Source: Sipunculus nudus (lineage: Eukaryota > Annelida > Sipuncula > Golfingiida > Sipunculidae). From it: a DNA stretch of 64,000 bases. The stretch is from positions 53,784,019 to 53,848,018 of the forward strand of contig CM049306.1 in the NCBI GenBank assembly GCA_026874595.1. The letters run 5' to 3'. The notes below the pieces were generated by a model. That model was not told the DNA's origin and did no database searches. It saw only the letters and a program-made list of their open reading frames with translations. How positions within the stretch are numbered: position 1 is the stretch's first letter; every line of letters starts with the position of its first letter. The translations under genes were made by a program, and so were the position numbers. Positions 7,371 to 35,959 of the stretch are shown here, in pieces.

Positions 7371-7433
7371 CGCAACCAGGTCCTTGTGCTCTATAGTTGT
7401 TCTTTAGCCGTTCATAAATATCCTGATCCTCAG
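7371..7433 (-). CDS. Candidate terminal exon with YERL motif
   Basis: On the minus strand an acceptor-like ...TTATTAG is followed by an open frame reading EDQDIYERLKNNYRAQGPG and then a stop. The frame is acidic then basic and looks like a cytoplasmic tail; YERL fits the YxxL class of sorting or ITAM-half motifs. Only one copy was found. It lies downstream of the A module exons on the same strand. The frame is short, so it could be chance; the acceptor and composition are the only support. Confidence 0.3.
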
Positions 7434-7443
7434 CTAATAACTT

Positions 7444-7790
7444 TGAAAGCAAATAAATGCAGATAACTTAAATAAAATCTAATTGCTTAGAAAATATGAA
7501 ATTATGAAATATAAAAAGTGAAAATTAATCATGAAAATTGGGAAATTAATTTAAATTTGAGATATTGCAGTTCAACGGTGTCATTGTGTATGACAATGCA
7601 ATTCCTCATTCGCCATACTCTTGGATCGCTCTTATTAATTATATTATATTATTTATATTTTGAAACTGTATTCCTCCCACTTGAATCTAATTTGACATCA
7701 CTATAACGTTTATTGTCATATATACCCTTTCCTTCACTGTCTGAATTATGCCTGATCATTACGCCCGGTAATTATGCAAGATCACAAAGA
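7444..7790. other. No gene seen
   Basis: AT-rich stretch. The last 60 bases begin the Q block shared with 13365 onward (TTACTGTCTTAATTATGCC-like text). Confidence 0.45.
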
Positions 7791-7812
7791 GTAGCGACCC
7801 ACGCTTCCATAC

Positions 7813-7872
7813 CTGCAGTAATTACAGTGAACTGATCCCTGCATTGCCAGTCGAATGAGATCAGCACAAAAC
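7813..7872 (-). pseudogene. Q exon, copy A
   Basis: Minus-strand text shared with 13418-13490 and 26352-26472. It reads DLIRLAMQGSVHCNYC before a CAG|GTATGG donor-like site; the copy at 26.4 kb reads DFIRLALQDVIHPAP before GCCG|GTAAC. Distance from the shared GAT codon to the donor differs by 5 bases between the two, so at least one copy is out of phase. The pearl-like element is inserted at its upstream edge. Confidence 0.3.
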
Positions 7873-8092
7873 TAGATGTGGTCGGACAATGGTCCTCAGA
7901 GGGCCCGGCGTTTCTGCTGGTGCTGGACTAGTTTACATATGTGTGAAAAATTAAGTTAAATTTGAAAAATATCACAAACAGAAACAGGTTTTTATCAATA
8001 TACATGAGGGAAAAAATCAAACTAAAAAAATCATACAAGAAGATATGTCTGAAAAAATGTGTGCAATAGAAAATCACCGAATGTTGTCTGTT

Positions 8093-8820
8093 AGCCATAT
8101 TTAATTTTGAGCAAGTCTGTAATTTAATAGGCCTGGAACCCTCATAAGGACCAATGATCCCTGTAAATTTGGAAAAACTGATGTATGTTGTTGTTTAGTT
8201 ACCACGCATGAAAGATAATCAGCAATTAGACAGTGGTAGCCATATTGAAATTCCAACAGGTCTGTAATTCAAAAGGTCTGGAGCCCTTATAGGCACCAAT
8301 CATCCCTGTGAATCTGGGAAAGCTGCAGTAGGTTGTTGTTGAATTATCGCGATTGAAAGAAAATCAGCGATCGGGCTGTTGCGGCCATATTTGAATTCCG
8401 ACAGGTCTGTAAATCAATAGGTCTGGAGCCCTCATAGGTACCAAACATCTCTGTGAATTTTGGAAAGCTGCAGTATGTTGTTGTTGAGTTATCGCGTGCG
8501 AAAGAAAAATCTGCGATTGGGCTGTGGCGGCCATATTTGAATTCCGACAAGTCTGTAATTCGATAGGTCTGGAGCCCTCATAGGTACCAATCATCCCTGT
8601 GAATTTGGGAAAGCTGCAGTATGTTGTTGTTGAGTTATTGCGTGCAAAAGAAAATCAGCGATTATGCTGTGGCGGCCATATTTGATAACCGACAAGTCTG
8701 TAATTCGATAAGTCTGGAGACAACATAGGTACCAATCATCCCTGGGAATTTGGGAAAGCTGCAGTATGTTGTTGTTGAGTTATCGCAGGCGAAATAAAGT
8801 GTCACTGACGGAAGGACGGA
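8093..8820 (+). repeat. Tandem array, five units of 145-146 bp
   Basis: The word GCCATAT recurs at about 8093, 8239, 8384, 8530 and 8675, giving periods of 146, 145, 146 and 145. Units share GGTCTGGAGCCCTCATAGG and GCTGCAGTATGTTGTTGTTG. The first unit is the most diverged and the middle ones the most alike. Open frames on the minus strand across the array are repeats of one another, not a gene. Confidence 0.9.
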
Positions 8821-8866
8821 AGTACGGAAGGACGGATGGACGGAATGACGGAAGGACGGACTGACA
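8806..8866 (+). repeat. ACGG-type microsatellite
   Basis: Degenerate GACGGAAG/GACGGATG run between the tandem array and the 3' end of the pearl-like element. Confidence 0.9.
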
Positions 8867-8885
8867 CGGTGATCACTATAGGGCA

Positions 8886-8900
8886 CCGCTTGTCAAGCGG
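8886..8900 (+). other. 3' terminal hairpin of the pearl-like element
   Basis: CCGCTT-GTC-AAGCGG forms a perfect 6-bp stem just inside the right border, in the position where Helitron-like elements carry their terminal stem-loop. Confidence 0.6.
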
Positions 8901-9009
8901 GGCCGTTAAAATCTTGGTTTAGTTAACATGGGATTGTTGTTACACAAAATATAGGTTTATGTACACTGTATATAACTTTACAATACACACTTTGTAATAC
9001 AGCCCCTTT

Positions 9010-9077
9010 TTATTCGTCAACAGGTGCAACATTCTTATAAAATACGCCATTTCCCGATGTTTCTTCATCATCTGCAT
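9010..9077 (-). CDS. Tail exon, copy A, with ITIM-like VFYKNV
   Basis: Minus-strand acceptor ...ACTGTTTCAG is followed by a phase 1 frame beginning DADDEETSGNGV and ending VFYKNVAPVDE before TAA. The tail is acidic and ends in V-x-Y-x-x-V, which fits the ITIM consensus [ILVS]xYxx[ILV]. Copies at 19001-19020 and 26530-26549 share the acceptor and first residues (DEDVVN and DADVEN) but stop early. The copy near 13570-13632 keeps VFYE and PVDE but has lost the AG acceptor and a base. The upstream exon of this copy (9260-9412) is broken, so this exon may be part of a pseudogene. Confidence 0.5.
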
Positions 9078-9259
9078 CTGAAACAGTACATGTGAAAACA
9101 ACACATGAACACCTGAAAATATTAAATATCACATATTAGTAAAATTTCAGTTTTTTTCATAGAAACTAATGTTGGTGTATTATATCCAGGAATCCTATCA
9201 CACTGAACAATTCCATACACAAAGAAATCCATCGGCAACTTCCCCAACCCTATGAAAAA

Positions 9260-9412
9260 GTTCTTTCAGTTTTTGCGAATTTTTTCCATCACACATAAAA
9301 CTAAGAATATTGACCGCATATACACCAAAGTTTACCTATATTCGTATACTAAGGAATACTCGCTCTTTTCAAAAATTTACCATGCATATTAAAACAAATT
9401 GAGATCTAATTT
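9260..9412 (-). pseudogene. R exon, copy A (broken)
   Basis: Minus-strand text aligns with the R exon at 13876-14095. The peptide MHGKFLKRASIP here matches LTGKSLPRASN there. Two in-frame stops and a third further on break this copy. Confidence 0.4.
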
Positions 9413-9574
9413 CACCAACATGGTATGTACTAAACTTTTTACACGCAACTGTGTGTCTGCTGCACGGCAGAACCAGAAGAATTCTCATTATATATTTAAT
9501 TAATAATGTGATATTTGCCGACTAAGGAAGTATAAGTTTTATTTCTGATATTTTTGTTATTTCCGTTTCTTTTA

Positions 9575-9682
9575 CTAATTAGGGCTGGTGAATATTGTTC
9601 TCACAAGGACTTCGCTCATATGAACCCAATCTTTCTCCTGTCGTCCCATCAGGTCAACTTTCCCATTGTGTATTGAAGACAC
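9575..9682 (-). pseudogene. T exon, copy A
   Basis: Minus-strand acceptor-like TTTATCTATAG precedes a frame reading VSSIHNGKVDLMGRQ then EKDWVHMSEVL, followed by CTT|GTGAGA (donor-like) or by read-through to a stop after TSPN. Four other copies (12053, 14370, 22660 and 34702) keep the same block; all except the 14370 copy read it in one frame over most of its length. Substitutions are often conservative (N/D/E, K/R). Either it is an internal exon ending at GTGAGA or a terminal exon ending SPN. This copy is intact but its neighbours are not. No protein family recognised. Confidence 0.45.
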
Positions 9683-9689
9683 CTATAGA

Positions 9690-10085
9690 TAAATAGAGGC
9701 GAAGAATCCGCAAATGTTAATTGACGACGGTGCCAGTCTAGCTCTGTCAGGACCACCAATCTATTCTGGCTCCTGTAGACGGTAGTTGGACGAAGAGATA
9801 AACTAGATATTTGATCAATTTCATAGATAAAAAAAGAAGTAAAAATATTTTAGTTATTTTTTAGAATATTTGACTTTCAGATTATATATTGACATTCCCT
9901 GTGAAAAGGTTCACTATGAACAATAAAAAAAATATGAGACCTTTACATCATTTTCATTTAAAGGAGAAATTTTGGCATAATAAAAAAAGAAGATGTTTAT
10001 CAAAGGCTTATACATAAAAGAGTATGTGTGGAACGGAATAACGTAGCTCATTCAACAAATCCTGAAGTGGTTCAATAACGAGCGA
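9690..10085. other. No gene seen; edge of the module
   Basis: The first 100 bases continue the shared module upstream of T (CTCCTGTAGACGG-like text also at 12240 and 22850). The rest is AT-rich with no second copy noted. Confidence 0.4.
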
Positions 10086-10089: not shown

Positions 10090-10310
10090 CTAAGGTCAAA
10101 GTGGTGGTACCATATATATATTAAGGTTGAACTTCAACACATTACCAGCACATTTTTCATTGTAAATCCATCCGTTTAATACACATTCTGGGCGTTGAAA
10201 TGGCCCATGTGGCAATTTTTAAGTTATAACGGATTAATTTTCCATATAGTAGATGTTATTAAAAAGTATTTTCACTGTAAACATACTCATTAAAGCCTCA
10301 TGGTTCTTTT
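10090..10310. repeat. U block, copy A (mate 19580-19800)
   Basis: Shares CCATCCGTT, GTGGCAATTT, TATAACGGAT and TTTTCATATGGTAG-like text in the same order as 19580-19800. No coding signal. It behaves as flanking sequence of the duplicated unit. Confidence 0.5.
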
Positions 10311-10771
10311 AAAAGTCAAACCAACTGGCTGAACCTTACATACTTACACTCATAAAAGACGAATAAAAAAATGGATTAACAAAAACAAAATATTCAATAA
10401 AGAAGTTACATTCTCTGGAGAGGGGCTCCATATGTTCAAACAATGACGATAAACACACAAATAAGCAAATAAGCACAGAGTCGATTAATCAAACTGCAAA
10501 GAGAAGATTTTGTTTGCACAGTTCCTGATCATATGACCATCGCGCACACGTGACACCGGGACTTTGCACCGGTCGTCTCCCTCGGTGGCTGGCGCTGCGT
10601 ATACAGTACACTTAGTCCTCCTGAGTCCTATAGATACACGGAGCTCCTATAAACAACAGTTCACCGCTGGAGTGTACTTGTTTGCCATTCGTGACACAGT
10701 TCACGGAACACGCACAGACTATTCTTTCTGGGCGTAGAATCAATATCTTTCACAGCTGATGTCTCCTGGAA

Positions 10772-10951
10772 TCATCCAGTTGTAGGTAGCAGGATATGCT
10801 TCCACACAGCAATATCCCGTACCTCTACAGTTACACGTTTAAACAAGTCCTCTGTCTCTTCCTGGAAGTGCTCACAACAGGTATAAATCGCCAGATTAAC
10901 CAGTCCGTTGGGAAAAATTCGATACTCGCTCTGAAGTCCGTTACATAGAAA
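10772..10951 (-). CDS. X block open frame, minus strand
   Basis: In a GC-richer island a stop-to-stop minus frame of about 60 codons reads through EYRIFPNGLVNL, then CCEHFQEETEDLFKRVTVEV, and ends in a stop shared with the copy at 1-480. The copy at 1-480 has decayed in this frame, which supports earlier constraint. No methionine lies in frame, so an upstream exon would be needed, but the nearest AG (ACTTCAG) has a weak pyrimidine tract. The opposite strand also has a conserved-looking frame (10957-11199), so the true coding strand is unsettled. No known family recognised. Confidence 0.35.
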   Translation of the reverse strand, partial: FLCNGLQSEYRIFPNGLVNLAIYTCCEHFQEETEDLFKRVTVEVRDIAVWKHILLPTTG

Positions 10952-10956
10952 TCACC

Positions 10957-11199
10957 ATGGCCTTCCTCAGACACCAACTGTCTACGCTTTTAGACACCAT
11001 CTCTCATGTGTCTGGACTGATACACGCAGACCTACCCCTTGACTGCAGATATCGCCATGCTCTACTTAACTGGAACGCTGGTCGGGCACTTCTCTCGAAT
11101 CTCGTCCCACTCACGACCTATGTTTGCTTGCTGACGTCACAACTCCCGCTTGTCTCCTGGCCAATCACCACTCCCATTTATGCCGACCGTCAATTATAG
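10957..11199 (+). CDS. X block alternative frame, plus strand
   Basis: Starts at ACCATGG and reads MAFLRH, then STLLDTISHVSG and LDCRYRHALLNW. The reverse complement of 1-160 gives the related MPFLRH, STLIDIISH and LDCRFRQA after one frameshift, so the peptide-level pattern also persists in this direction. The frame ends in a stop at TATAG. No domain is recognised. It overlaps no other candidate but lies head-to-head with the minus frame at 10772-10951; at most one of the two is likely to be real. Confidence 0.3.
   Translation: MAFLRHQLSTLLDTISHVSGLIHADLPLDCRYRHALLNWNAGRALLSNLVPLTTYVCLLTSQLPLVSWPITTPIYADRQL
11132..11165. promoter_or_regulatory. CRE palindrome and CCAAT box
   Basis: TGACGTCA (11132-11139) and GCCAATCA (centred about 11163) lie 25 bases apart in the GC-rich X island. 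They could form a promoter for either X frame; no TATA box or transcript evidence is available. Confidence 0.3.
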
Positions 11200-11209
11200 C
11201 ATGAATGAT

Positions 11210-11825
11210 AATATGGATACGCCACCAGAGACAAAAATCCTGGGAAAACTAAACTAAACAGGTGCACTTCCTTTGAAATCTAAAACAAACACTCGTTACT
11301 ATAATAGAGACCGCCAAACAGAGACGGCTCAGACGGATTAAACTGTACTGCAGTTAACATCAAACAAGACACGTGTGCCCTCTAAGGCTCTCACGCAAAT
11401 ATCTTAACATGATACTCCATATAAATGCATAATAAATTATCAAAACAATCATGTTCCCTACTAGTTATATATCCTATTAGAGCATGCAATACAATAACTG
11501 AGTCACAGTTCTCTGTTGACAATGGTGAGTTCCTTGTTCATATAATATCTCAAATCTTCTCAATTGTTTCTAATGACATATTGTGGCAAAGTTGTAAATA
11601 GAACAAGTAAGAAGTTGTAAAGTTTATATTTAGGGATGTTGCACGGAAAAACAAACGAGTCAACAATTGCAATATCGTTCTGATTATATTAATAACATAC
11701 TGATCCCTTTAATTTGTTTTGATTTCATTTGTAATAGAGATATATAATTGAAACAATAAACGCTTATAGTTCTCATTGCTTTCTTTCGGAAAACACATGA
11801 ATAACTGAAATATAATCATGATTAC
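11210..11825. other. No gene seen
   Basis: AT-rich sequence with no convincing frame, repeat partner or splice pairing. Confidence 0.45.
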
Positions 11826-11829
11826 ATAC

Positions 11830-11990
11830 GGCGTATAAACTTTTTATGTATTGTAATAGGTCTCTAATACAATTTATAATTCACAATTGTAGAGGTACTA
11901 CCAATAGTAATATCCCTTTTTAACACAGCTGTGTGACTGAAGGCAGAAATCGGATGGCTTCTCATTATGTATATTTAATTATGTAATATT
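11830..11990. repeat. W block, copy B (mate 20700-20845 plus 22540-22600)
   Basis: TGTATTGTAATAGGTCTCTA and CACAATTGTAGAGG lead into CTTCTCATTATG. The mate carries the same text but is split by a 1.66-kb insertion at the ACTACC position, so this copy serves as an empty-site reference. Confidence 0.55.
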
Positions 11991-12052
11991 TGCCAACGTA
12001 GGAAGTAGTTTTCATAACTGACACGGTGTTTTGTTAGTTCCGTTTACTCTTA

Positions 12053-12160
12053 CTAATTGGGCCTAGTTAATACACCACTCACAAGGACTTCGCTTAATTG
12101 ATCTCGAACTTTCTCCAGTCCTACAATCAGGTCCACCTTCCCGTCGTGTATGAAGGACAC
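12053..12160 (-). pseudogene. T exon, copy B1
   Basis: Reads VSFIHDGKVDLIVG then DQLSEVLVSG, with a perfect donor-like CTT|GTGAGT and acceptor-like CCGAG. The middle has diverged (LEKVRDQL against REKDWVQM), but the frame stays open to the shared stop after RPN. It lies downstream of the P block on the same strand. Confidence 0.4.
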
Positions 12161-12249
12161 CTCGGACAAATGCAGATGAAACGGCCATTTATTTTTTTTT
12201 GTCGGATCCAGTCTAGCTGTCTCAGTACAACCATTCTATCCCGACGTAA

Positions 12250-12420
12250 GTAGAAGGGACAAGGAACAGGTGTGTTTATAACATAATACGACGATCCTTC
12301 CGAGATCTCGGCCTCTTATTTTCTCTCCGTCTTCTATTTAGTAAATCTTATATCCCTGATAGGTACATTACAAGCCATTCAATACTCTGTTTTCTTACAT
12401 TTCTTTCCTCAAATATTATC
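12250..12420 (-). pseudogene. Upstream block of T, copy B1
   Basis: Minus-strand text shares CTAAATAGAAGACGG and AATAAGAGGCC with 22920-22990. Both read LNRRR then NKRPR, but here a stop precedes it. The match supports a longer duplicated unit rather than a lone exon. Confidence 0.35.
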
Positions 12421-12439: not shown

Positions 12440-13200
12440 TTGTAATATATGTCAACCAGAGCTTTGGAAGTTTACCAGTCATTATGCACGATACATCTCA
12501 GTATGATTTGATTACCATGGTAAACGAACATAATTGTATATGCATGCATATTTGTGCCATGTAGTTTCCATACCTTTAAGCATTTACTATAGGGAATTTG
12601 TAGCAACATTACCATAGACCTGGTTTTAATTAAAAAAAAAATAATAATAAATCCATCAACAAAGGAGCCCAGACTTTGCACCATTTGAACTTGATCCATT
12701 TACGGTCATTATCTGAGCTCATGCTTTAATTGGTCAGGTGGACTTCATAAAAACGTAAATTTTGCCAAAACGTATCTCTGAAACAAACTAGCATTGTAGG
12801 TTGCGATTCCAAAGCCATACCAAAAGGAAAAATTTACGTTTGTTAAATCAGTGCATTTAAAACGTAATTAACTTCTGTTCTTGTACGGAACTTCCGCAGA
12901 CAAAGTCTGAAACTCTTTAACATTGTTTTTGCAGTCCGGGTTGTTCTGAACTTTACGGTGTAGAACAGGCGTTTTATAGTGCTGTTGTTACCCTGTTGAT
13001 TGTTATTTGTCTTTGCACAGCATATGTCAGCAGGTAACGAATAGGTTGTATGAAAATTAATGGAGAAATAAGTCTTTGGGTAAAAAATGTCAAAGGTGTT
13101 TTGTTTTTATCATTTGTCATACTTTGGTTTGATTTTATCGGAGATATGCGGTCAATTAGAACAGTCTATGATTTATACCGTTGCATCGTCCACCTCCCTC
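12440..13200 (-). pseudogene. P block, copy B
   Basis: Collinear with 1438-1990. A minus frame reads LPADICCAKTNNNQQG and continues past RLFYTVKFRTTRT to ALI and a stop, a longer frame than in the mate. Splice sites are not clear. A second part (SSDNDRKW) aligns with MDSENGRN of the mate but has a one-base insertion after it. Function unknown. Confidence 0.35.
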
Positions 13201-13354: not shown

Positions 13355-13356
<2 letters not shown>

Positions 13357-13364
13357 TATTTTAC

Positions 13365-13660
13365 TGTCTTAATTATGCCTGATCAATACGCTTTGCAGTT
13401 ATATAAAATCATAAAGGGTAGCGACCCACGCTTCCAACGCAAGTAATACACTGAATTGTTCCTGCTTTGCCAGTCGAATGCGATCAGAACAAAATAAATC
13501 TGGAGTATGTTGTTACACGAAATGTAAGTTTATGTACACTAGAATACACAGACTGTTATACAACAACTTTTATTCGTCAACAGGTGAAGCCTTCATAAAA
13601 TACTCCAAGTTCTGATTACTTTTCATTTACGTTTGAAGCAGTATCTACGAAAAAACACCT
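13365..13660 (-). pseudogene. Q and tail exons, copy B; empty site for the pearl-like element
   Basis: Runs parallel to 7730-7870 joined directly to 8935-9080, without the pearl-like insert. The tail-exon remnant keeps VFYE and PVDE but has a one-base loss and GCTTCA in place of the TTTCAG acceptor. The Q remnant reads DRIRLAKQEQ. Both are therefore broken. Confidence 0.55.
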
Positions 13661-13875
13661 GAACACCTGAATATATTAAATATCACATTTGGTTAAAGTA
13701 AAATGTCGATTATTGTTCGAATAACAATTCTTGGTGTATAATGAATCCAAGGGTATTATAACACTGAACACGTCCGGACAAAAAAAATATCCATCGACAA
13801 AAATGTTTCTATCACGTTGTTGATTAAAAAACGGGGTCCTGGATATTCAGATAACAATCACGACAAAACAATTGA

Positions 13876-14095
13876 TTACTCTGACAACACACTTGGACTA
13901 CCCAATAAAAAGATCCCGCATCATTTTTTTTCGCGATTTCAATAAAATAATCAGTAAACTTTAACTTCAAAATTCCAAGTTGCCCGTTGTTATGAAAACC
14001 TGACTCAAACGAACTTTTATTTAACTTGTTATGTGCAGCATTACTGGCTCTTGGCAAACTTTTGCCCGTTAAAAAGGAAAGAGGAAAAAGTAATA
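13876..14095 (-). pseudogene. R exon, copy B, signal-like leader
   Basis: Minus-strand acceptor TTCTTCTGCAG is followed by KSSLLLFPLSFLTGKSLPRA, a hydrophobic leader, then GQLGILKLKFTDYF and NDAGSFYWVVQ before CAGA|GTAATC (donor decayed at base 6). DAGSFYW resembles the DxGxYxC signature before strand F of Ig domains, with W in place of C; this is suggestive only. One A fewer than in copies C and D after the acceptor puts the frame out of register with them, so this copy is probably broken. Confidence 0.4.
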
Positions 14096-14369
14096 AAGAA
14101 CTTTTCTGCAGAAGAAGTTCAGGATACAGGAACCAATTTCCGCTTAACAGGGCTCATCCAGCATGCTTGTATGCGATCATTATTTCCATACTTATGAACA
14201 CAGATTACGTTCTAATGGAATACCAACCACACGGTAGGTAAACCCTTTTTACAGGCAGCTGTTGTATTGCAAAACCAGATGATATAATCAATAATGTATT
14301 TTCTTGCCAACTAAGGAAGTATTGGTTTTATTACTGATACTTTTGTTATTTCCGTTCCTTGCACTGATG

Positions 14370-14460
14370 AGGTCTGGTGAAGTCGACAGAACTTTGAACT
14401 TTTGAAGTCTTTCTCCTGTCGTCAGATCAGATCAACCTCCCGCCGTTAATTGAAGACATA
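14370..14460 (-). pseudogene. T exon, copy B2 (frameshifted)
   Basis: Reads SSINGG and then loses one A relative to the other copies, giving an early stop. The donor-like GTGAG is also lost. Confidence 0.4.
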
Positions 14461-14479
14461 GCTAGTACATGCGGTTGTG

Positions 14480-16420
14480 TCATAGATTCTGCCGAATTTT
14501 AATATAGATTTTTGCTTACATAATCTTTTCATAATTTTGGATCATAATATAACTAAAATCGATAACTGTTTTTTTTTCTTCCGTATTCTTTGATTTATGG
14601 CGGCCATATTAAAAACAGGATTATATATCTCTCGAAAACTGCCATTATAGACAGTGGTTTCCCCAGAACAATTTGGCAATCCTCAATAGACAACTTTTCT
14701 TAGTGGATTATAGGATAATTCTTTCGATTTCTTAAACCAAAAAGTTGTATTATACAAGTTTAATACGATACGATAACGATTGCATAAATCTGCATATCTG
14801 AATTAATTGGGGAAATTTATTCTATAATAAATAAATATATTATTTATTGTATTTCTGATACAATATTTTCAAATTTGACAAGATGCAACATATGTCTATA
14901 TAAACTCTCATATCTGTTAATTAATTAAGCCCAGTAAAAGAATGATAATTAAATAAATTATTGAGATTAATGGTACTGGTTTTTCATCAGAAAATCATTA
15001 CTTTAATATATTACCTAATATTTCACATTACGGCTATTTGAATAGTTGCTTATCATTTTACTTATTAGCCGTAATATGTATTGTTTTTCCTTTTTAAGGG
15101 TAGTTTACATAAATACATTTTTAAACTAATTTGTCTATATATAAATATGTATATGCCAAATGGGAATATCGATACTAAATGGGGTTTTTAAAAAAAATGT
15201 ACAATTTTACTAATTTGCATTTGCAATGAGCAGCTTGATTAATCATAATCGCTCGTTGGTTGTTTGGTGAAAAATAACACATGCATTGGTTATTAATGCC
15301 AAGGTGTGAGAGGCTAAAATCAGACATGTACTTAATTAATAATTTAACTTGATGTTACAGAGGATGTCAAACTCACGCGTATGTTTGTTATTTGGCTGGA
15401 AGTGAATGAATTTGTTGTTCCTACCAGGTGTATTGACGTTTGCAGTATTGATATAGGGCATACTTAGAGGGTTCGTTTGGGAAAAGGCAAAGGCAATTTT
15501 AACGAAACGAGGGTTTGAATTAAATTAAATACACAGCGTTCAATTGATCACTACGGATGTTGTCTATACAGGAAAACACTTGTTACGTACCTAAGTAATA
15601 AGCCAATATGGTCAAAGAATGATGAAAATGTCAACCATCTGACCAAGAACAGTTATAATACGTCATTCTTTAACCGTGCAAAGTGTTTGTGTAAACGTCA
15701 TTGACAAAGGGTGATAAATGGTTCATGATATTGACTTTTATAAAATAACGACACTTAGAGACATATTCGTAAATATAAGGGTGTTTTAGGATAAACAGTC
15801 TGTTACATGTTAATATAAGAGACTATACATTTTAACAGGTCAGAAATTATGCACTGAAATGACATTTAAATTATCCCATGTTATAGAAATATAAACTTTC
15901 AGTTTACAGTATGCTGTACATGTTGTAGCAAATGCATTAAATGTATATCCTACATATCATACTTGAATTTTATCATACCGTCTTTGCGAGTACATATTAT
16001 TTTATTTTTTTTTCGTCATATAAAAGTCCATTACGTTAAATGTATATAAGGTATTGATAAGGTCAAAGGAGGCACTTATATAATGGGCTCTTATATACAG
16101 GTTAACATATTGCATTTGCTGTTTTCTATTGGTCTTAGTTAAATTTCTTATATATGCCACGTATAACACAGGGAAGTTGATAAAAAAAATTAATGTAAAA
16201 CTATTTTGTACAGTTTTATAATGGGTGTCGAGCTCCTTGTTATTAGGAACATATGACATAAGTAATTCAAGCAATATTATAATAATATTGATTAAAATGT
16301 AAAAGTAACCGTTAATGTGATCACAACATGTATCAGCAGGCTGCAAAAAAATAGTCATGAAATTGATGCGTAAATATTACTTATGGATACAGATGGAAAT
16401 GGTATACACATAAAAGTCGG
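14480..16420. other. No gene seen
   Basis: Long AT-rich stretch. The 118-codon minus frame at 16002-16358 is rich in I, L, Y and F as expected from base composition, and no motif or second copy was found. Confidence 0.45.
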
Positions 16421-17334: not shown

Positions 17335-17960
17335 TCACCAGCATTCAAACAGTTCAGTCTGTCATTCCTTATTTGATCCTACTTCTACCTGGTTCTAAGC
17401 GATTACTTAACAAGTAAACTAGCCCTTTTATAGTTTTGAGTATACAATTGGAATGTATGGCGAATACTTGCTGAGGATATATAAACGTACATTTCGGTTA
17501 AGAAATAATCTTTGCAGTAAGCGTGAATGATAAAGCTCTCCTACTTCCTTCAGTATATGGATAATGTTGGTAATATAGCTTGACCGTTAAGCTTATGGCA
17601 TTAATGCAAATTTAATAAGATTTTATATGCTAAACATATGTGGTTTGATTTTCTCTGAATATGCATATCCAAGAAATACCCCTTATCCATCCATAATGAA
17701 ATTTAGATGAAAGGGTGTATGAAGCATGCAAGACGGCTATTAAGCCAAAATATGTAAAAACAAATTAAATTACGAACGCCCCCTGCGCCCCTCTGGATCC
17801 GCCTATGCAAAAAAGGTTGACTTTGTTAACCTTCGAAAGAGATAATACGATTTTATATTCCCGTTATATCATATACTTTTCTAATGCTAAAAAATTATGT
17901 TTTGATTTTCTTTGAACTAGCATATCCAAGAAATATCACTTATCAATGGAACTGAACGGA
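17335..17960. repeat. V block, with an internal duplicate; mate 35080-35545
   Basis: GTATGGCGAATACTTG-like text also occurs at 35150. A segment with TTTTGATTTTCT and CATATCCAAGAAATA occurs at 17640-17690 and again at 17900-17940, with a third relative at 35430-35470. This extends the duplicated unit beyond its exons. No coding signal. Confidence 0.4.
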
Positions 17961-18990
17961 TAAGGACACCTTTAATATTTACAATCACAAAACAACATGT
18001 TAATCATCAGTGCGGTTTTATTTTTGCAGTTTTCTCATTAAAGTTTGCCAGTATTAATATGACACGCAGTATCTTTCGATCAATCATTGCCAGAAAATAT
18101 AATGGATTATGGATGCAACAAGATATAAGATGAAATATTCATGACTGGAATAAAATATGTAAAAAAAAGAGCTGCATTCCTGAAAGAAAGGATGCTGTTT
18201 ATTTTCCGCAGAGAATATCAACCCTTACTGTTTTCTTGAAACATTGGTAAAAATCAGTTTTAATTTTGAATATATGACGCTAGGTGTGCAAGCTCGGCTC
18301 TGTCCTGTCAATTTACCTGTTCACCAAAGCCCAAATGCTCCGCCCTTTTTAACTTATTATTATAATGAGCCCCTAAAACGCTCCTACACAGAAGGTTTCC
18401 ATGCCCCTGGTAGCGAGAGCTTCTTACAACATAATAATGACGTCACTAAGGTCGATGACGCAAGACATCGTATTGACTGACCTCATCAACTGATATCACT
18501 TGACCATTGTTTACTATACTGTATGGCAGTCATTATGAGTTTTGTCTTGCAGTATTGTGGATTATTTGTCTCAAACGAATTACGTGCTAGGTAAGACATT
18601 ATTAATTCACTCAGTAGTCGGAGGAATGGCTCCTGCTACCTATGACCTATAGCCAATAACTTTTTATACTGTCTTCTTTGTATAAAAAAATATCCCGGAA
18701 AACATGCCGACATTGGTACTGGCAGTATATATAGACTACACGTGTTTTGTTTGACAGAGCTCTGTCAAATTATGTAAAATTTTTTTTTTTTTTTGTCAGA
18801 TGACTGACGCTTTACAATTTTTATGGGCACCTGATTGGCTGCTCGTTAGTCCAATCCTTATGATTATTCATTGAATGAATATGCGATTAAGGTCACATAG
18901 AGTTCATGGATAGGTCAATTGCTGATCATGTTGCCGCAACAGGAAATTTCATCTTCTAACCAGTTTTTTCTTATTATAAAAAAAGTACTT
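17961..18990. other. No confident gene; GC-richer patch at 18290-18480
   Basis: The frame at 18244-18480 covers a patch with lower AT and a TGACGTCA palindrome near 18438. The peptide has no recognised domain and no second copy. It may be a promoter-like patch rather than coding. Confidence 0.3.
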
Positions 18991-19000
18991 CATTTTCTTA

Positions 19001-19020: not shown

Positions 19021-19189
19021 CTGAAACAGAGAAAGAACACAACACCGTCTGATAAGTGATGGTATACCATCATAATATTGAAAATACATATTTTCATCAG
19101 AAAAAAACTTGATAATATATATCAAGTAATTCCGTGATCAGTATGATACAACAAGTAGGTACTCTGGGGAATTACTTTCCAGAACTATT

Positions 19190-24231: not shown

Positions 24232-24340
24232 GAGGACTTCCTTTTGAAAAAAAAATCAAACAACCCATAAATCGGCCGAACTATTAAAACAATGGGTATC
24301 ATTGAAAGATACTTCAGAATGTAAAAAAAAGTCAACATAC

Positions 24341-24541: not shown

Positions 24542-25017
24542 CTGAAAAAGCGTGACGGGCGAAAAATAATGTATTGCTGAACATTTGTAGATGGTTAGGG
24601 TAAAGGCATATCAAAAGTCCATTTCATTTCATTTCCATGTAATAAGAATCACCATAATATATATTTTCTTATAAACCATTATGACAAAGGACCATTCCTT
24701 TGTCCCTGTGTGGAAGCCATCTATTCGTATTCATTTGTTCTGCCACTCGCAAGGTGAACTCCTGTTACTGAACCATGACAGTGTTCACGCATACACGTGA
24801 ACACGACTGATATTTAAGGAAATTCTGGTGGAGGTGTGTACGCCCTGACTACAAATTCTAGTTCGTTATCAATTTAAAGATGTACTTGTGATATTTTTTT
24901 CATGTTTCACCGTCCCTACAAACAAAAAAAAACTTCATAAAACAGATGACTTGCCCGAACTTTTGAAACCATGGTTATCATTGAAAGATATTTTTGAATG
25001 TATGAAAATCAACATAC

Positions 25018-25297
25018 CTGTAAGCCATAAAAAAATTCGTCAAACTGGACTCAGTGCCCAGTGTTGACCAAACTGAAAAGCCCTCGCATTGAATGCCGAG
25101 TCATGTGGGTTTGTGATTAAAAACCTCTATTTCCTTTTGAGAGAGAATTCCTTTATAGGCGTTACAATGGATATGGGGGATCAATGGGGATTATATGGTG
25201 GACCCGCGTGACCGCGTATTGCACGGAAATGCCTTTTGGGCAGGACATGCGCTCTGGCCACGGTCTTAACAGGCTAGTGAAAATCCCGAGGCGCCTC
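25018..25297 (-). pseudogene. Decayed tandem copy of the 24341-24541 exon
   Basis: Same acceptor (GACGCTTTTTCAG|GAGGCG) and donor (GCTTACAG|GTATGT), but the frame has stops soon after the acceptor and an inserted GC-richer segment. Confidence 0.45.
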
Positions 25298-25699: not shown

Positions 25700-26290
25700 C
25701 ACAAGCTTACCTTAACGACAATCAAGCATGTGTTTTGGTAGCGCTGCTTGTTCCACTGTAACATCACATACCTCTCTGTCAGTCCACGCCTATACACACC
25801 CATGGAAGCAGAGTTTATCTATATTAAGGGACAAATCTCAGCATAACATTTTTATAAAGACAATCATAAATGTTCCTGGTGTCGGAATGTGGTATTGTTG
25901 ATCTAGGAAGATAAAGAAACTGGGTTTCATGAACGATATATAACGAAGCAATATAACACGTATCCTACGGGACATTCTTTATCATACAGTATGCGTTGTG
26001 ATAAAATTAAGTGAAGAATACCCTTCAGTAATTAGTAAATATCATACAAGATTTTGGTCTATTCGCAGGTATGGCCTCTTTTAGATGCGTCGATAGCTAA
26101 ATCATATGTCTCGCCAAACGTGCAGATCCACAGACGCCAAACAGGTGTCTCATTTAATGAAAGGACCAAATATATTAATTATATTTTGACACTGTTTAAT
26201 ATTGCCCTCGAGTCCATATTCTACTTTATTAAAAAAGTAAAATAATTAAGTTAAGTTACAATTACATTTTCTATTATATTAAATGCATTC
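25700..26290. other. No gene seen
   Basis: AT-rich, no repeat partner noted. Confidence 0.4.
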
Positions 26291-26351
26291 TTTTATTGTC
26301 TTAATTATGTTATATGAAAGATGACCAGAGGTAACTAGCCAGGCTTGTTAC

Positions 26352-26472
26352 CGGCAATGATTGGAGCCGGGTGGATTACGTCCTGTAATGCTAAACGAAT
26401 GAAATCTACATAGGATGGTTGTAACACAATCTGTAGGTAGATGCACACCAGCCATATAACTTCATCATTGGC
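26352..26472 (-). pseudogene. Q exon, copy D
   Basis: Minus frame with LQPSYVDFIRLALQDVIHPAP up to GCCG|GTAAC. It lies downstream of the tail exon stop, so it belongs to another transcript form or is a remnant. See the copy at 7813. Confidence 0.3.
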
Positions 26473-26529
26473 AGACTACGTTAGACAAGCACTTTTTTCC
26501 GTCTCATAAACGACGCTGCATGTACTTAC

Positions 26530-26549
26530 TTAATTTTCAACATCTGCGT
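26530..26549 (-). CDS. Gene D, last exon (short tail)
   Basis: Follows TGCGGTTTCAG. Its first two bases complete a codon with the last G of the 26757-26930 exon to give DADVEN and TAA. The intron between is 207 bp, starts GTAAAT and ends TTTCAG. Compared with copy A the tail is cut short before the ITIM-like motif. Confidence 0.45.
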
Positions 26550-26756
26550 CTGAAACCGCATTTGAGAAACAACACCAGGGCGTCTGAGAAGTGACGGCAT
26601 CTACAATATTAAATATACATATGGTATCTTTTTCTTTTCGCCAGAGGAAGATTTCTTTATATGATACATCTCTGGGGTTCCATCACAGTGTACACAACCA
26701 GACACAGACATCCATCAGTAAGTTATAATAGCATTGATTCCACCTTGTATATTTAC

Positions 26757-26930
26757 CATCGGGGTCCAGAACATAGAGTACGATCTCGATTTGACTGTCG
26801 AGCGATTTCAGTAGGGCTACGACAGTTGGAAGCGTTGTAGGTTTGGTGTTTTTTCTCATGATTTCGTGGAAGCGTTCACATATAAAATAAATGTTTGCAC
26901 GACGGTCGTAAGAAAATTGCTCAAGGCTGT
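26757..26930 (-). CDS. Gene D, exon S, 174 bp, phase 1-1
   Basis: The frame is open from AC|AGC (after TGAG) to GATG|GTAAAT and reads SLEQFSYDRRANIYF, then VVALLKSLDSQIEIVLYVLD. Its end joins in phase to the tail exon. Its start is compatible in phase with the R exon (A + AC), but the acceptor has a poor pyrimidine tract. The last part survives in copy B as IQDPVF near 13820. The peptide looks globular, with a hydrophobic strand (IEIVLYVL). No family recognised. Confidence 0.45.
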
Positions 26931-27068
26931 CTCAGTCTTATCGTACGCGTCTCCTACGGGAGTCGTATAAGGTCCCTACGATGGTCGTAATATAAAGGAA
27001 ACAGTTCCCCATTTTTTTTCGTAGACCTGTCGATTATGTGTTGTGCGATGTATGTGACTTAAACTTAC

Positions 27069-27265
27069 TCTGACCAAACACTTTCCGAAACAAATCTTTA
27101 GCTTTCACGGGAGATCCAATTCCATGAAACATAAAATATGCTGTTAGAGCGTTAATACGTAAAAATGGCTTCAAATAATGTTTACCGATATGCATTTTCG
27201 CAGGCAAATACTCTGACAAATATTTGCCCGTTAAAAAGGAAAGAACCAAGAGTAGAAAAATTTTT
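27069..27265 (-). CDS. Gene D, exon R, signal-like leader
   Basis: Acceptor CTACTTCTACAG and strong donor CAGA|GTAAGT bound an open frame. It begins KIFLLLVLSFLTGKYL, a hydrophobic segment suiting a signal peptide or membrane anchor, and continues PAKMHIGKHYLKPFLR to KAKDLFRKVFGQ. Paralogues at 9260, 13876 and 19190 share the leader and LTGK but are broken. The frame also stays open upstream of the acceptor to 27327, so the leader could be internal. An upstream exon with the start codon was not found. Confidence 0.45.
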
Positions 27266-27351
27266 CTGTAGAAGTAGTTTAGGAAACAGATACTGATATT
27301 CAGCGGATCTAAAAAAACCTCTCGTCCATTCTGCTTTTGCTACACACTCTT

Positions 27352-27576
27352 TCAGACCTTCTTAGTTTCACGACTTACACGTTTCTCCCCTAAGGCTCGA
27401 AAAATTCTCAGGTCTGAAAATTTAAACACATCAGCCAGTCGCGGTTGAGAGAAAGTTGGCAACGGTGGCAGATCCAAGTTTTCAATCGATGGGGTGAGGC
27501 GCCAACCAAGGATGACAAATGTGAAAACCAAGTCCAAATTAGTCTCAAATTCTAATATGAAGATGACCTGTGTCAA
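27352..27576 (-). CDS. Open frame upstream of gene D
   Basis: Frame includes LTPSIENLDLPPLPTFSQPR and FSDLRIFRALGEKRV. Within it lies AATTTTCAG and, 38 bases on, CGT|GTAAGT, which could bound a mini-exon. The phase does not fit the next exon (R). No second copy is known in the window. Confidence 0.25.
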   Translation of the reverse strand: MTQVIFILEFETNLDLVFTFVILGWRLTPSIENLDLPPLPTFSQPRLADVFKFSDLRIFRALGEKRVSRETKKV

Positions 27577-27785: not shown

Positions 27786-28440
27786 CGGTCGCCACTGGAC
27801 TCAACCTTTTTTCTTTGTGGATTTTGTTTACCAACATATCAGGTGTGAAAAATATGTAGGTTGGCCCGCTGTCAGACTTTAGCATTTTTTCTAATTAGCA
27901 TAAAACAAAATGGCCGGCAAATTTTGCGAAAATAACAAAAATGCCAAATATAATCATTTGACATAGAGGGTCATCCAGTACATGGTTTTTGGGGTATTAT
28001 GACCCAGAGAAATCATTTTTGGTATTGTTTTAAACATCATGACCATTATTTTAAATATATTGTTGTACTCCATTTGAAAAATAAACTGTTAATATTCTGA
28101 ACCCAGGATTTGGTTTGTATGTATGATCCAACACAATCTGCAGATCGACGGTAAAAAATTAAACTAAGTAAACACTTAAGTATAGATAACGATGTTCAAA
28201 GTTCTGGAAAACAGCTGTTATACATTATAAAAATAATATCTTTTTAACTACCAGTATGACCTTCAAAATGAAACAATAAGAGCGAAACTGCCGTTATCAA
28301 AACATTTTTATTTTTACCATTGTGTCACGACGAGGCCAAATATTTACAACTTAAACAAAATTTTATTTAGTTGGAGGGGGAATAAGTTATAGTTCAATTA
28401 AATCAAAATGGCACCTTTATTGAAATTCAACTTTGTTCGT
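27786..28440 (+). repeat. Inverted repeat I1 (mate 33185-33800)
   Basis: Shares with the reverse complement of the mate: CATATCAGGTGTGAAAA, CTAATTAGCATAAAACAAAA, GTAGAGGGTCATCCA-type text, TTAAACTAAGTAAACAC and CAAAATGAAACAATAAGAG. About three quarters of positions agree by eye. Confidence 0.7.
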
Positions 28441-28519
28441 TCGGAAATGTAAATATGTGTTTGCATATAATATGTCAAGTCTTATCACAGATTTTGCAAC
28501 ATATCTCAGGTATACTGGT

Positions 28520-28968: not shown

Positions 28969-30145
28969 AAAACTAGAATACGGGTAGTCAACAAGCGACT
29001 ACATGTATCCGCTAAAATCAGAGTGGGACGGGTGAAGTGAGGCACGCTGTGCAAAAATGGTGGCAGGTGGCGCAACCACTTTTGTGTTTGATTAAGAGCT
29101 ATGTGATATCTATACACATGCAAAATTTCAGGGGGATATGTCAAACAAGTCCTGAAATATAAGCCTTAATGTCTGCAGCGTATACATAAATGTAGGTGGC
29201 GCCACCTGCCACAAAATCAAGAAAGCTATCCAGGATGTATTAACATGCTAAATTTTAGGCAGATAAGTCAAACCACTACTGAGATATGAGTAATTTTAGC
29301 TCAGGGCAGACAAACATACGGACGCTGTGCAAAAATGGTGGCAGGTGGCGCCATCAATTTTGTGTATGATTAAGAGCTATGTGAGATCTATGCACATGCA
29401 AATTTTCAGGGGAATATGTCAAACCAGTCCTGAGATATAAGCCTGAATATTTGCAGCGTATACTAAAATGTAGGTGGCGCCACCTGCCACAAAATCGAGA
29501 GAGCTATCCAAGATGTATAAACCTGCAAAATTTTAGGCGGATATGTCAAACCACTGCCGAGATATGAGTGATTTTATCCCACGGCAAACAAACAGACGGA
29601 CACAGTGCAAAAATGATTGCAAGTGGCGCCACCAGTTTTGCGCATGATAAAGAGCTATGTGAGATCTATAAACATGCAAAATGTTTGCCCAATCAGTCAA
29701 ATAGTTCCAGAGATATGAGCTTGGATGTCTGCAGCGTAGATTTTAATGTAGGTGGCGCCAACTGCCATAAAATCAAGAAAGCTGTCAAGGATGTATAAAC
29801 CTGCAAAATTTCGGGAGGATAAACCAAACCACTGCCGAGATATGAGTGATTTTTTCCCCATGCAGATTAACAGAAGGACGATGTGCAAAAATTGTTGCAG
29901 GTGGCGCCACCAGTTTTGCGTATGATAAAGAGGTATTGGAGATCTATACACATGCAAAATTTTCGCCCAACTGGTCAAACGGTTCCCGTAATATGAGCTT
30001 GGATGTCTGCAGCTTTAACGTGATGTAGGTGGCGCCACCTGTCATAAAATCAAGAAAGCTGTCCAAGATGTATACACATGCAACATTTCAGGTCGATAAG
30101 TCCAACCAATGCAGAGATATGAGTGTTTTTATCCAAAGGCAGATG
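28969..30145 (+). mobile_element. Hairpin-started tandem-repeat element F1 (mate 59590-60732)
   Basis: Starts AAACTAGAATACGGGTAGTC with an adjoining GTAGTC/GACTAC hairpin, exactly as the mate. Then come about four units of roughly 280 bp, each with GTGGCGCCACC palindromes, GAGATATGAG, CATGCAAAATTT and GACGGAC text. Open frames of up to 93 codons recur in both elements because the repeats are shared, not because they code. Belongs with the pearl/Helitron-like non-autonomous class by structure. Confidence 0.65.
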
Positions 30146-31405
30146 AACAGATGGAAGCTGTGCAAAAATCTAAGAAAATGCAATTAGAAAAAAATAAACA
30201 AATGAAGACTGATGACTGATTATTCACAGAAAATTTGTTGATGCTAGCTCCTGCCTTTTTTGAGATAGGTATGGTTAACTAGAGACGACGCACTGACGCA
30301 CGATGCAGCAATATTGCATAAGCTCACAGGTTCGCTAAAATCCGATGTTTTAGATGACAAATCTTTTGCAAAAAATTGGTGATGTTAGCTCCTGGCCTTT
30401 TTGAGATAGCTATGACGCACGACGGAAGACGGACGACGCCACACCATTGCATAAGCTCACAGATTTGCTAAAAATGCAAACGAAGTTTTTTTTCAAACAG
30501 CTGAAAGATATAGTTCAAATAATCTGGGAATTCTGTGTCTAGGCATTGTGTCTAGACTTCTAGATGCTGTGTCTAGACACATTGTCTAGACACCCCGCAG
30601 AGCCAGGTCAGTCGCCATGGTGATGTCTGGACCCCACCTGGTTGTACTGAGTGACCTCTTGACTTGGCTGCTGAAACTCAGCATGTTATCAAATCAGTTT
30701 TCAAACACAGAAAGCCTATTTCAATTGGCTACAAGCTGTATACCCAATCTAGTCTTATAAAACTGGCAGAACCCTACCATAGAATAATTCTTGTAAAGTT
30801 TAAACCAATCAGCTTAACAGTTTCACCATAAATCATTGTATAAGATAGAAGGGTTTAAAATTACATTTTCGCTTGTAAAAAACAGATCAATGTAGGTCGC
30901 GCCACCAATACCTCAATTTCAGATATGACATATGTGACAAACATTGGTAAAACATTTGGTGATTATCGCTCTAGCCGTTCGTGAGATTTTACTTTTAGTG
31001 TTTATTTCGACAGATGACTAAGTTCAACCTCCTGTAACTCGGCCAAAAATCTCCGAACTGGAACCGTTCTAACAAACTTGAGAGAGATTGTTCCAGGAAT
31101 CATTTCTGTGAAATATTGGACAATTTGGCTGGACATTTTCGGAAAAGAAGATTTTTAAAGCTTTTATAGCTTTTCCCGTATAAAATCTAAGAAAATGCAG
31201 TTTGAAAAAAAAATAAACAAAATCCGATAGAGTTTTCCAGATGACTGATTATTTGCAAAAAAATTTGGTGATGCTAACTCATGCCTTTTTTTAGATAGCT
31301 ATGGTTAACGTACAGACGACGCACAACGTACGACGCACGATGCACGACGTACGACGGACGACGCCGCACCATCGAATAAGCTCACAGGTTCGCTAAAAAG
31401 CACCG
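30146..31405 (+). mobile_element. Nested repeat with duplicated GACGACGC..AAGCTCACAG ends
   Basis: ATAAGCTCACAGGTTCGCTAA occurs at about 30318, 30460 (variant) and 31375, each preceded by an ACGACGCACGACG run. ATCTAAGAAAATGCA and TTGGTGATG..CTC words recur between. This looks like several 3' ends of one pearl-like family stacked together. Confidence 0.5.
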
Positions 31406-32319: not shown

Positions 32320-33180
32320 GTTGAGAGTATACTAGTTGATTCCGAGATCCACCTGTCTGAGCTGTGTGGCCGTGTTCCTACCTGGTATATACCCACAGGC
32401 ATTTTTCCACTTACTGAGAGAGGCTTGTGTCTCAAAATATATTTATCGATGTATTGGTGGCACAGTGCCCCTTTACTTTTACAAAAGTCTTTGAAGAGGT
32501 TGAAACATATTTATGATCTGAGCCGGATAGATACATTACCAGGGTATCATAAAAAAAACTAGAAAATAGACGAATACCACTGCTTCCGAGAGGATTTTCA
32601 TCAAACTGTACTCTTTTTTTTCACAGAAAATGTGTTTCATGGTATACCAACACCATGGCTTGATCTCAGATCAGCTTTAAAATAAAGCCGCCGACAATAC
32701 ATAACCATTGGTCTCGGTTGGGATAGAGAAATCTCATGGTGGTGATCAGGATCGTCTTCAAAATTTAAATGACTGTTTCTTTTGTATCACCCTATTCCTC
32801 TACAAAACTGTACTGAAGATGCTGATTTAGACAGAGCAAACGAATAAAAAACCGGGGAAGTAAAACATAAAATATACATCCTAAGTCTGTGAATGCTAGC
32901 GGCCACATTTGCAAGTCCCCAGTTAGATGACCTTTGACAAAATATGTAAACACTGCATGAAAGGTCAATGAGAGAGGGAAGGGGTGGGGTTCAAGTATAT
33001 ATGACCCGACAATGCTTTTCGACCCCGCTATAATCATATATAAATATTTTTGAAAGATGAATTAGTTTTCCATGTTACAGCTTTGTCCGATAGTATCTAC
33101 ACCCTTCAAAATACACTTTACAAAGAAACTTGCACAATCTTTCATCATGCAAGTCCCTTAAATATTATATGCAAAAACAT
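32320..33180. other. No confident gene
   Basis: The 81-codon minus frame at 32792-33037 is hydrophobic and lacks splice context or a second copy. The rest is unremarkable. Confidence 0.35.
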
Positions 33181-33184
33181 ACAA

Positions 33185-33800
33185 CTGTTTCATTGGCGAT
33201 CGAACAAAGATGAATTTCCGGAAAGGTGCCATTTTGATTTAATTAGACTCAAGTTATGCTCATTTAATCCCCTCAAACTAAATTAAATCTCGTTTAAGTT
33301 GTAAATATCGAGCCTCGAGGGTGAAAATCAAAAGTGTTGATAACGGCACTTTTCCTCTTATTGTTTCATTTTGAAGGTCATACAAAGGTACTAAAAAGGA
33401 TATTATTCTTATAATATATAACAGCTGTTTTCCAGAACGTTTGATCGTCTTTCCCTAAACGATGTGTTTACTTAGTTTAATTTTTTTACCCTCGTTCTGC
33501 AGAATGAGTACAGCTCAAATGGGAGTACAGCTATATTGAAAACGGTGGTCATGATGTCTAAATCAATATCAAAAATGAATTTTCTGGGTCATTATACCCG
33601 AGAAACCATGTAATGGATGACCCTCTACGTCAAATGTCAAGGTAACTATGGCATTTTTGCTATTTTCGCATTATTTCGGCGGCCATTTTGTTTTATGCTA
33701 ATTAGCAAAATTGCCCAAACCTGACAGCGGGTCCACCAACACAATTTTCACACCTGATATGTCGGCAAACAAAACCTACAAAGAAAAAACTTGAGACCAT
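33185..33800 (-). repeat. Inverted repeat I2 (mate 27786-28440)
   Basis: See I1. Together they could be long TIRs of a 6-kb element, or two independent copies facing each other. Confidence 0.7.
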
Positions 33801-34124
33801 AAAATAAGGTTAGCAAAAAATGACCTTTGAATGCTGGACTAAAAAGAGATACTTTGAGTAAACATTTCAACTAATTTGGTTGCGCTATGTTTGTACCAGT
33901 CTTGAGGCCACATGGTGCTCATTGTTGCCACATTATCTAACTAATGATAGCACAACGGAACTTTCATAGTAATACATGGCATTTTGACACCACATGTTAA
34001 AATGGAAAACAAATTATAAGAAAACGTAGGAATAAATAAATATCCCGCCAATCATCTGACAAACAATGGTAAATATATATCTTTTGCTAACTTTGCTCGC
34101 AGAGATAAGGGAATAGTCTCCGGT
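33801..34124. other. No gene seen
   Basis: Unremarkable AT-rich sequence. Confidence 0.4.
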
Positions 34125-34395
34125 GAGTGCCTTCTGTGTCTACCGGTTTTTACATTTGAGGTCAATTCTGTGTCTTCCGTTTAACATTTGAGATCACTTC
34201 TGTGTCTGTCGTTTGACATTTGAGGTCACTTCTGTGTCTACTGTTTGACATTTGAGATAACTTCTGTTTCTACCGTTTTTACATTTGAGGTCAATTCTGT
34301 GTCTACCGTTTAACATTTGAGATCACTTCTGTGTCTACCGTTTTACATCTGAGATCTCTTCTATGTCTACCGATTGATATTTGAGGTCACTTCGG
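34125..34395. repeat. Minisatellite, about 32-bp unit, eight copies
   Basis: Units read TTCTGTGTCTACCGTTT plus ACATTTGAGGTCAC with point changes. Confidence 0.9.
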
Positions 34396-34701
34396 ATAAC
34401 TTTGACATTTATAATCAGGAGAATTTTAATAAACAAGTGTAATGTATGAGGAATCATGTAGACAAACCCAACTAAATAACCCAGATGTATTTTAATTAAA
34501 GATATAGTTCGATTAGTGAACATCTTTTCTTACATCCCTTATACAGTAATATATGTACCTTTTTAAAATCAGCTGTGAGGCTGTTCGACTGCTTGTATCG
34601 AAACCAGATGCCTTTTCATTATGTATATTTAATATTGTAACATTGGGCAAATTAGGAACTAGTATTTTGTTACTGGTGTTTGGTTGGTTCCGTGTATTTT
34701 C

Positions 34702-34808
34702 TTAATCAGGAAAGGAGAATACATTTCTCAAAAGGACTTCGCCTATTTGAACCCAATCCTTCTTCCGTTCTGCAATCAGATCAACCTTACCCTCGTGTAT
34801 TGAGAACA
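34702..34808 (-). pseudogene. T exon, copy E
   Basis: Reads YVFSIHEGKVDLIAER then KKDWVQIGEVLLRN and stops after FPD. The frame is intact, but the donor-like GTGAG has become TTGAG and the acceptor is TACG. Flanking text to 35050 matches the upstream blocks of other copies but carries stops. Confidence 0.4.
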
Positions 34809-35169
34809 CGTATAGACCATTGGAGACCATTCATTTATCTACATGGCTATTCTAGATCTGTGAGTTCAACCAATCCATCCTTAATAATGTAGGGAGGACA
34901 AGGAACAGATCTTGCTCAAGCGACGATATACCCGAAACTCCAGGTAATAATAAACCACTTCAGTCCTCTTGCTGTCACTTTATCTTCTAGAAGCAGCAGC
35001 TCGTACGTACGTTAACCAGACACATTTTCCTGGACAGGTACATTAAACCTGCAAAGCTAGTCATTCTCTGTGCCGTTCTTGAATCTAATTCTACCGGGTT
35101 TTTATCAGGGAATCTTAACCTTATATATTGTTATAAATACACAATTTGAATGTTTGGCGAATAATTGTT

Positions 35170-35959
35170 TGGGAAATAATATAAATATACAATATAAATG
35201 TGTACAATAAATTTCGAAGATGATTTAGTATTACGTAAGAATGGTCAAACGTTTATTTCCCATACAGTACATAGCTATTAAGGGTCCCACTACGTTTCTC
35301 TATTCTATGACCTTATTAAGGAATTTATTGACTGAAAATGTATGATTTGTGTCAACTGATAGTATTATCAGTTAACCATTGAAGTAGAGGATACGATTTT
35401 ATTTTCAAATTTCCAATGTTTAAATTTCGTGCTTTGATTTCCTCAGAATGAGCATACATATTAAAGAGCCGTTATTATTGGTAGTGAACGGGCAGTGGTA
35501 ATATGCAAGTTTTCATTATTCGCAATTTTCTCAGGCATACACTGATGTGAAGATGCGAACTTAAATTATTTTTAAATGTTGTGAAAAAAACCATGAGCAT
35601 GGATATTTGAACAGAGATCGCCTTATACGAAACACTGGATATTTTATCAATGAATATAAAGTTAACATATTGGCATAACTATAATTAATGAGCAGGGCCT
35701 CCGAAAGAAATTTTTCGAGGCAGTGCAAAAGGGTTTCCGTGCCCTCCCCTTTCCTCGTTATCAGAACCATCAGGTTTACGGATTTAATAAACTCTGTATT
35801 CGGTTAAAGGTCGAAGCTATTAAGTGATTAAAGCGGTACAAATGAATGGACTGTAAGAGAGGGATGTTCTGTTTTTTTATCTCCGTAAAATTCTACGTAT
35901 ATTCTATATGTATACACTGAATCCACTATTATAAACTGAATAAGTCATATGGAGGTCTT
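35170..35959. other. No gene seen; V-block relic at 35390-35545
   Basis: Part of the duplicated unit (see 17335-17960); otherwise AT-rich. Confidence 0.4.

Follow-up and report, generated by a model that had tools for sequence, protein, structure and literature searches.

The window analyzed here, a stretch of 64,000 nucleotides from Sipunculus nudus (positions 53,784,019-53,848,018 of contig C1, GenBank CM049306.1, in a genome of 1.43 Gb and 153 contigs), contains about four tandem units of collinear, same-strand blocks, and part of a fifth unit lies 4.5 kb left of the window. We consider it probable that these units represent an ancient local tandem (segmental) duplication of mainly non-coding DNA, a few kb in length, which decayed neutrally and was split by transposable elements. 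The original prediction, made from the sequence alone, had read the blocks as exons of an old, tandemly expanded and decayed family of multi-exon protein-coding genes. An old and decayed tandem expansion at one locus was supported by the collinear units on the same strand and by DNA searches that returned local places only; a multi-exon protein-coding family is disfavored by neutral mismatch phases, by the indels, by codon tests and by random redistribution of substitutions in the block called T.

Tandem units of collinear blocks

Positions are those of the window, and negative numbers or numbers above 64,000 refer to its left and right flanks. Self-comparison revealed that the window is rich in repeats. 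The blocks were mapped by an nhmmer tile scan after satellite masking, using queries from -8000 to 40000 and the window plus 40 kb on each side as target. Their names (tail, R, T, P, W) were taken from the original prediction, and Ta and Tb denote the first and the second T block of a unit. Five T copies are located on one strand of the window (9427-9794, 11907-12368, 14183-14503, 22534-22990 and 34545-35103), and a sixth, a partial Tb assigned to unit 0, lies outside at -4714..-4401. The predicted recurrence of minus-strand blocks in consistent order was confirmed for T as well as for R, R2, tail, P and W, whose order and orientation are constant between units, with individual units lacking some of the blocks. 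Pairs among the blocks reached E-values down to 1.1e-37. Within 7700-36000 we obtained 90 direct and no inverted tile hits (83 of the 90 at E<=1e-3) after exclusion of hits located in declared insertions (inverted pairs among them), and a reversed-sequence control with the same tiles yielded a single hit at E<=1e-2 and no hit at E<=1e-3. The 90 hits do not equal the number of independent events, because tiles share sequence, each pair is scored in both directions and the count takes in a separate small duplication (23871-25250). The repetition of the blocks is beyond chance.

All blocks of the units lie on the minus strand. Unit 1 comprises a tail at 7732-7880 (pairing with 13359-13502, E 9e-21), R at 8923-9241 (pairing with 13503-13799 and 26405-26724), Ta at 9377-9794, which is supported by tile scan, T alignments and T tree, P at 10166-10269 (pairing with 19630-19731, E 3.1e-8), and W together with Tb at 11740-12368 (W 11740-11894, Tb 11907-12368), which pair with 20622-20767 and 22623-22991. 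Between this Tb and unit 2 lies a further block (~12566-13170), whose second copy at 1454-1985 could be part of the unit to the left of the window. In unit 2 the tail (13356-13503) is directly contiguous with R (13503-13875, tile scan); R2 is located at 13976-14168 and pairs with 27141-27337, and a frame-broken Ta at 14183-14503 was recovered by tile scan and alignments. Neither the tile scan nor the alignments detected Tb itself in unit 2; pieces resembling the Tb flank of unit 4 are present at 17342-18154 (17342-17493 pairs with 35041-35193, and 17825-18154 with 35371-35688). Unit 3 contains R, R2 and P at 18845-19731 (pairing with 26471-26654, 27063-27500 and 10166-10269), W at 20622-20767 (pairing with 11740-11894, E 2.9e-4) and, according to the tile scan, Tb at 22534-22990 and no Ta. 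For unit 4 the tile scan revealed tail and R at 26258-26801 and R2 at 27063-27500; Tb with its flank at 34545-35193 was seen by tile scan and alignments, and a block beyond Tb at 35369-35688 pairs with 17823-18154. The different lesions expected for different copies were also observed: a stretch that stays open in four of the window copies has gaps of 1, 4 and 7 bases, within it or at its end, in T3, the Ta of unit 2, and ~54 columns of this open stretch are missing from the copy outside the window.

Unit 3 also harbors a separate tandem duplication of ~690 bp at 23871-25250 (E 8e-41), for which the tile scan found no partner in the other units; a minus-strand open reading frame (ORF) of 157 amino acids (aa) lies within it at 24153-24623, and both strands give similar matches. 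Inside unit 4 an inverted pair of ~0.7 kb (27796-28500 and 33130-33799) has a Kimura two-parameter (K2P) distance of 0.165.

Insertions and continuity of the units

Tail and R, which are contiguous in unit 2, are separated in unit 1 by a dispersed element at 7882-~8928 that carries a 145-bp tandem array and is absent from unit 2, and both edges of the interruption are homologous as judged by eye. In this clearest case, the gap between tail and R in unit 1 is an insertion. A genome search with the first 179 bases of this element (7882-8060) returned 2067 candidates, of which the 40 scored have at least 89% identity, and a further copy (of 7877-8904, with its 145-bp array interior) is located at 88399-89532, right of the window. 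A second dispersed element in unit 1 (10300-11535) has an inverted copy at -452..760, and its stretch 10690-11520 gave 1501 candidates genome-wide; both counts are first-look candidates from the search tool that was also used for the core blocks. The third insertion (20772-22532) splits W and Tb of unit 3, and the alignment crosses the site once it is removed. Ends like those of this element (20841-22527) were found at 63121-63447, 98291-98638 and 54400-54605. The edges of 10300-11535 and 20772-22532 are approximate, because automatic global alignments across both scattered; target-site duplications were not established for the three insertions, and only the empty site of 7882-8928 is sharp. 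The unit 3 copy of the third element (20841-22527) contains internal direct repeats, which recur inverted at 41138-41577 and direct at ~-35195..-34188.

With the insertions removed, the homology between units runs on in single alignments. Unit 1 (9238-7733) and unit 2 (13800-13360) form one alignment of 474 columns with 74% identity, and two alignments connect unit 1 with unit 3, one of 547 columns and 66% (12367-11844 with 22990-20717) and one of 351 columns and 60% (11742-10167 with 19969-19631). The homology spans the segment and not exons only, with some stretches still unaligned. Where examined, the exon-like boundaries are insertion edges, which is evidence against exons.

Locality in the genome

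Four DNA queries were searched against the genome and recovered 3 places with 14000-14500, 5 with T1, 4 with the stretch from the tail to R2 of unit 2 and 3 with Tb of unit 4. All 15 places are within C1:53.779-53.819 Mb, and four of them are the queries themselves. The sensitivity of this search is partial, as the T1 query missed one of the six known local T copies, namely Tb of unit 4, and this Tb, when used as query, missed three of the six. Since local T copies were recovered incompletely, distant copies could be missed as well; we assume that hundreds of dispersed copies of a comparably old family would show despite these limits. Furthermore, the three places found with the T peptide are all local T copies, and no relative was detected elsewhere in the genome in this search, which also missed other local copies. 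Taken together, the specificity of the core blocks for this locus is supported. The original prediction had named a repeat in hundreds of copies genome-wide as an observation that speaks against a gene family; this was found for two of the elements inserted in the units and not for the core blocks.

Coding potential of the blocks

The mismatch phases are flat in 21 of 22 block pairs, and the length is a multiple of three for 15 of the 160 gaps in T, 11 of the 74 in R, 7 of the 42 in R2 and none of the 6 in the tail. Both counts refer to pairs over the score cut (14 of 15 for T, 5 of 6 for R, 2 of 3 for R2, 1 of 3 for the tail and 0 of 1 for W), which are not independent, with the phase taken from one member per pair. 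A codon scan of 16 gap-free runs of at least 60 bases in six frames gave one of 96 tests with z>2, none with z>3 and a mean z of -0.03, and no frame stands out in these runs. Simulated coding controls of like divergence reached a mean z of 3.69, 2.64, 1.82 and 1.25 in the true frame at omega 0.1, 0.3, 0.6 and 1, which means that strong constraint would be visible and that weak constraint could go unnoticed. In the 28-codon frame of T, 27 nonsynonymous codons were seen and 26.7 are expected under neutrality when the substitutions are randomly redistributed (p=0.63). Two further arguments for a protein were not confirmed. Peptide similarity was said to outlast base similarity, and the plus strand of one T pair gives 54.8% versus 54.3% for the minus strand, in another pair the minus strand gives 76.9% versus 69.6% for the plus strand, and the codon tests average close to zero. 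Splice sites were described at constant places, and the edges of the T frame, which were chosen by us because the original prediction gives none, carry AG in two and GT in four of the five window copies. No Pfam family was found at E<=0.5 in the six frames of 7371-35370, and the same procedure was positive in the left flank, where it detected RVT_1. These reverse-transcriptase fragments lie left of the window in two frames, on the minus strand at ~1198-1738 of L007, with E-values of 4.5e-13 and, under the Pfam cut-off, 1.4e-5.

The ORF of 104 aa that overlaps Tb of unit 3 (22865-23176) was rejected as an intact exon: its part outside Tb, residues ~1-62, matches a dispersed repeat, and the rest lies in Tb. 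Among the matches listed at E<=10, 149 of 150 are elsewhere in the genome, eight of those at E<=1e-3, and they mostly cover residues 1-69, some with stops. This ORF looks like a chimera with over half its length from the dispersed repeat.

Several observations weigh against a neutrally decaying, mainly non-coding duplication. The T frame is open in four of the five window copies, and these four are gap-free over 91 columns. It is the best of six frames in a BLOSUM comparison (p=0.018), nonsynonymous differences are less frequent than synonymous ones (pN 0.213 versus pS 0.282), third positions are variable at 16 of 30 sites versus 11 of 30 and 11 of 31 for the other two codon positions, no new stop was observed versus 2.5 expected by random redistribution (p=0.066), and two windows of 50 columns over most of the frame contain 0 and 1 gap events versus 2-6 in ten others. 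In addition, the mismatches between R of unit 3 and R of unit 4 are phase-biased (3, 5, 15; chi-square 10.8), the only such case among the 22 pairs; like the T-frame hints, this one is weak and was singled out post hoc. The codon scan has little power for relaxed constraint, with z>2 in 21 of 40 simulations at omega 0.6. The limits and the length of the unit are provisional, with ~3.3 kb for unit 1 without insertions and ~5.4-5.5 kb for the spans chosen for units 2-4. Finally, a genome search with block 12566-13170 missed the copy at 1454-1985 and returned, besides the block itself, four short matches (42-81 bp) on other contigs, which are confined to the first 86 bases of the block, so that this end holds some dispersed sequence.

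The T hints could be read as traces of a tandemly expanded, lineage-specific family of protein genes in which every member has become a pseudogene and T is a single short coding exon. The open, indel-poor frame with few stops and somewhat more variable third positions, the donor GT in four of five copies and the tandem arrangement specific to this locus agree with such a family. We consider it unlikely, as the nonsynonymous changes in T equal the neutral expectation, no frame is favored across the gap-free runs, the acceptor AG is present in two of five copies, the exon-like edges coincide with insertion edges where examined, Pfam gave no match, the T peptide found no relative elsewhere in a search that also missed some local copies, and the 104-aa ORF is mostly dispersed repeat. 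More doubtful still is the narrower idea that T is what remains of a short coding exon from a lineage-specific orphan gene, which was expanded in tandem here and is now extinct in the genome; if true, the locus would show how a whole orphan gene family was born and lost in one lineage. Purifying selection in the T frame is unsupported, and the data give no more than a hint of an open frame in the ancestor of T. Within the limits of these alignments, the blocks evolve neutrally in all frames, which the original prediction had also listed as an observation against a gene family, and the weak signs to the contrary are confined to T and one R pair.

RNA and transposable elements

A non-coding functional array of RNA genes or regulatory repeats is very improbable. 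A function without codons or RNA structure would be compatible with all tests run, but there is no Rfam match in the window, and block identities are alike (67-85%) with no strongly conserved core seen. A structured RNA was rejected on the basis of the Rfam result, of alifold z values near zero for the T alignment of five copies (-0.30 and -0.46 versus shuffled alignments, no structure signal) and of the predicted T pairs, of which one of 20 is compensatory. A tRNA scan found 0 genes. Repeated and dispersed elements are numerous in the surroundings, but an old low-copy transposable element that landed here repeatedly or was amplified with the locus is highly improbable as the source of the blocks, given that all 15 DNA places are local, that the copies lie on one strand only and that no match to a transposase or reverse transcriptase was found in 7371-35370. 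A dispersed repeat family was rejected for the core blocks on the same local places, and it was accepted for the two insertions with 1501 and 2067 candidates.

History of the locus

In the T tree, Ta of units 1 and 2 is separated from Tb of units 0, 1, 3 and 4 with a support of 89, and support within Tb is 44-70. This split supports an internal doubling of T, giving Ta and Tb, that probably preceded the multiplication of the larger unit. The pairwise K2P distances of the window T copies are 0.30-0.59, and those of five dispersed-element pairs from the region are 0.15-0.30. This contrast weakly fits insertions after the duplications and cannot date them, because the element copies may have diverged before landing. 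Gap-free identity is 67-85% and broadly alike among the blocks.

For the ancient local tandem duplication we propose that a segment of a few kb was duplicated repeatedly in head-to-tail orientation in the distant past, possibly by unequal crossing-over or replication error. The copies would have been without selected function and would have diverged to ~67-85% gap-free identity, parts of them would have been lost by deletion, and transposable elements may then have cut them into exon-like islands. This resembles the local tandem segmental duplications of animal genomes in its head-to-tail arrangement, low copy number, single locus, collinear blocks and later insertions. It differs from them in the strong divergence of the copies (K2P 0.30-0.59 for T), due to which only parts align, and this duplication may be older than most catalogued ones. 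Tandem arrays of unprocessed pseudogenes also contain tandem copies with different lesions, whereas here no parent gene was found in this genome with the T peptide and the codon signature is limited to weak hints in the T frame and one R pair. The locus is also a caution that a continuous duplication cut by insertions in transposon-rich DNA can mimic the exons of a novel gene family when it is translated.

Other arrays in the surroundings

Two arrays ~30 kb apart, 29044-30169 and 59698-60442, are built from a common tandem unit of 278 bp and have a common flank of 75 bp with 93% identity. A further array of ~1.5 kb at 45343-46839 shows periods of 31 bp, 92 bp and 273 bp.

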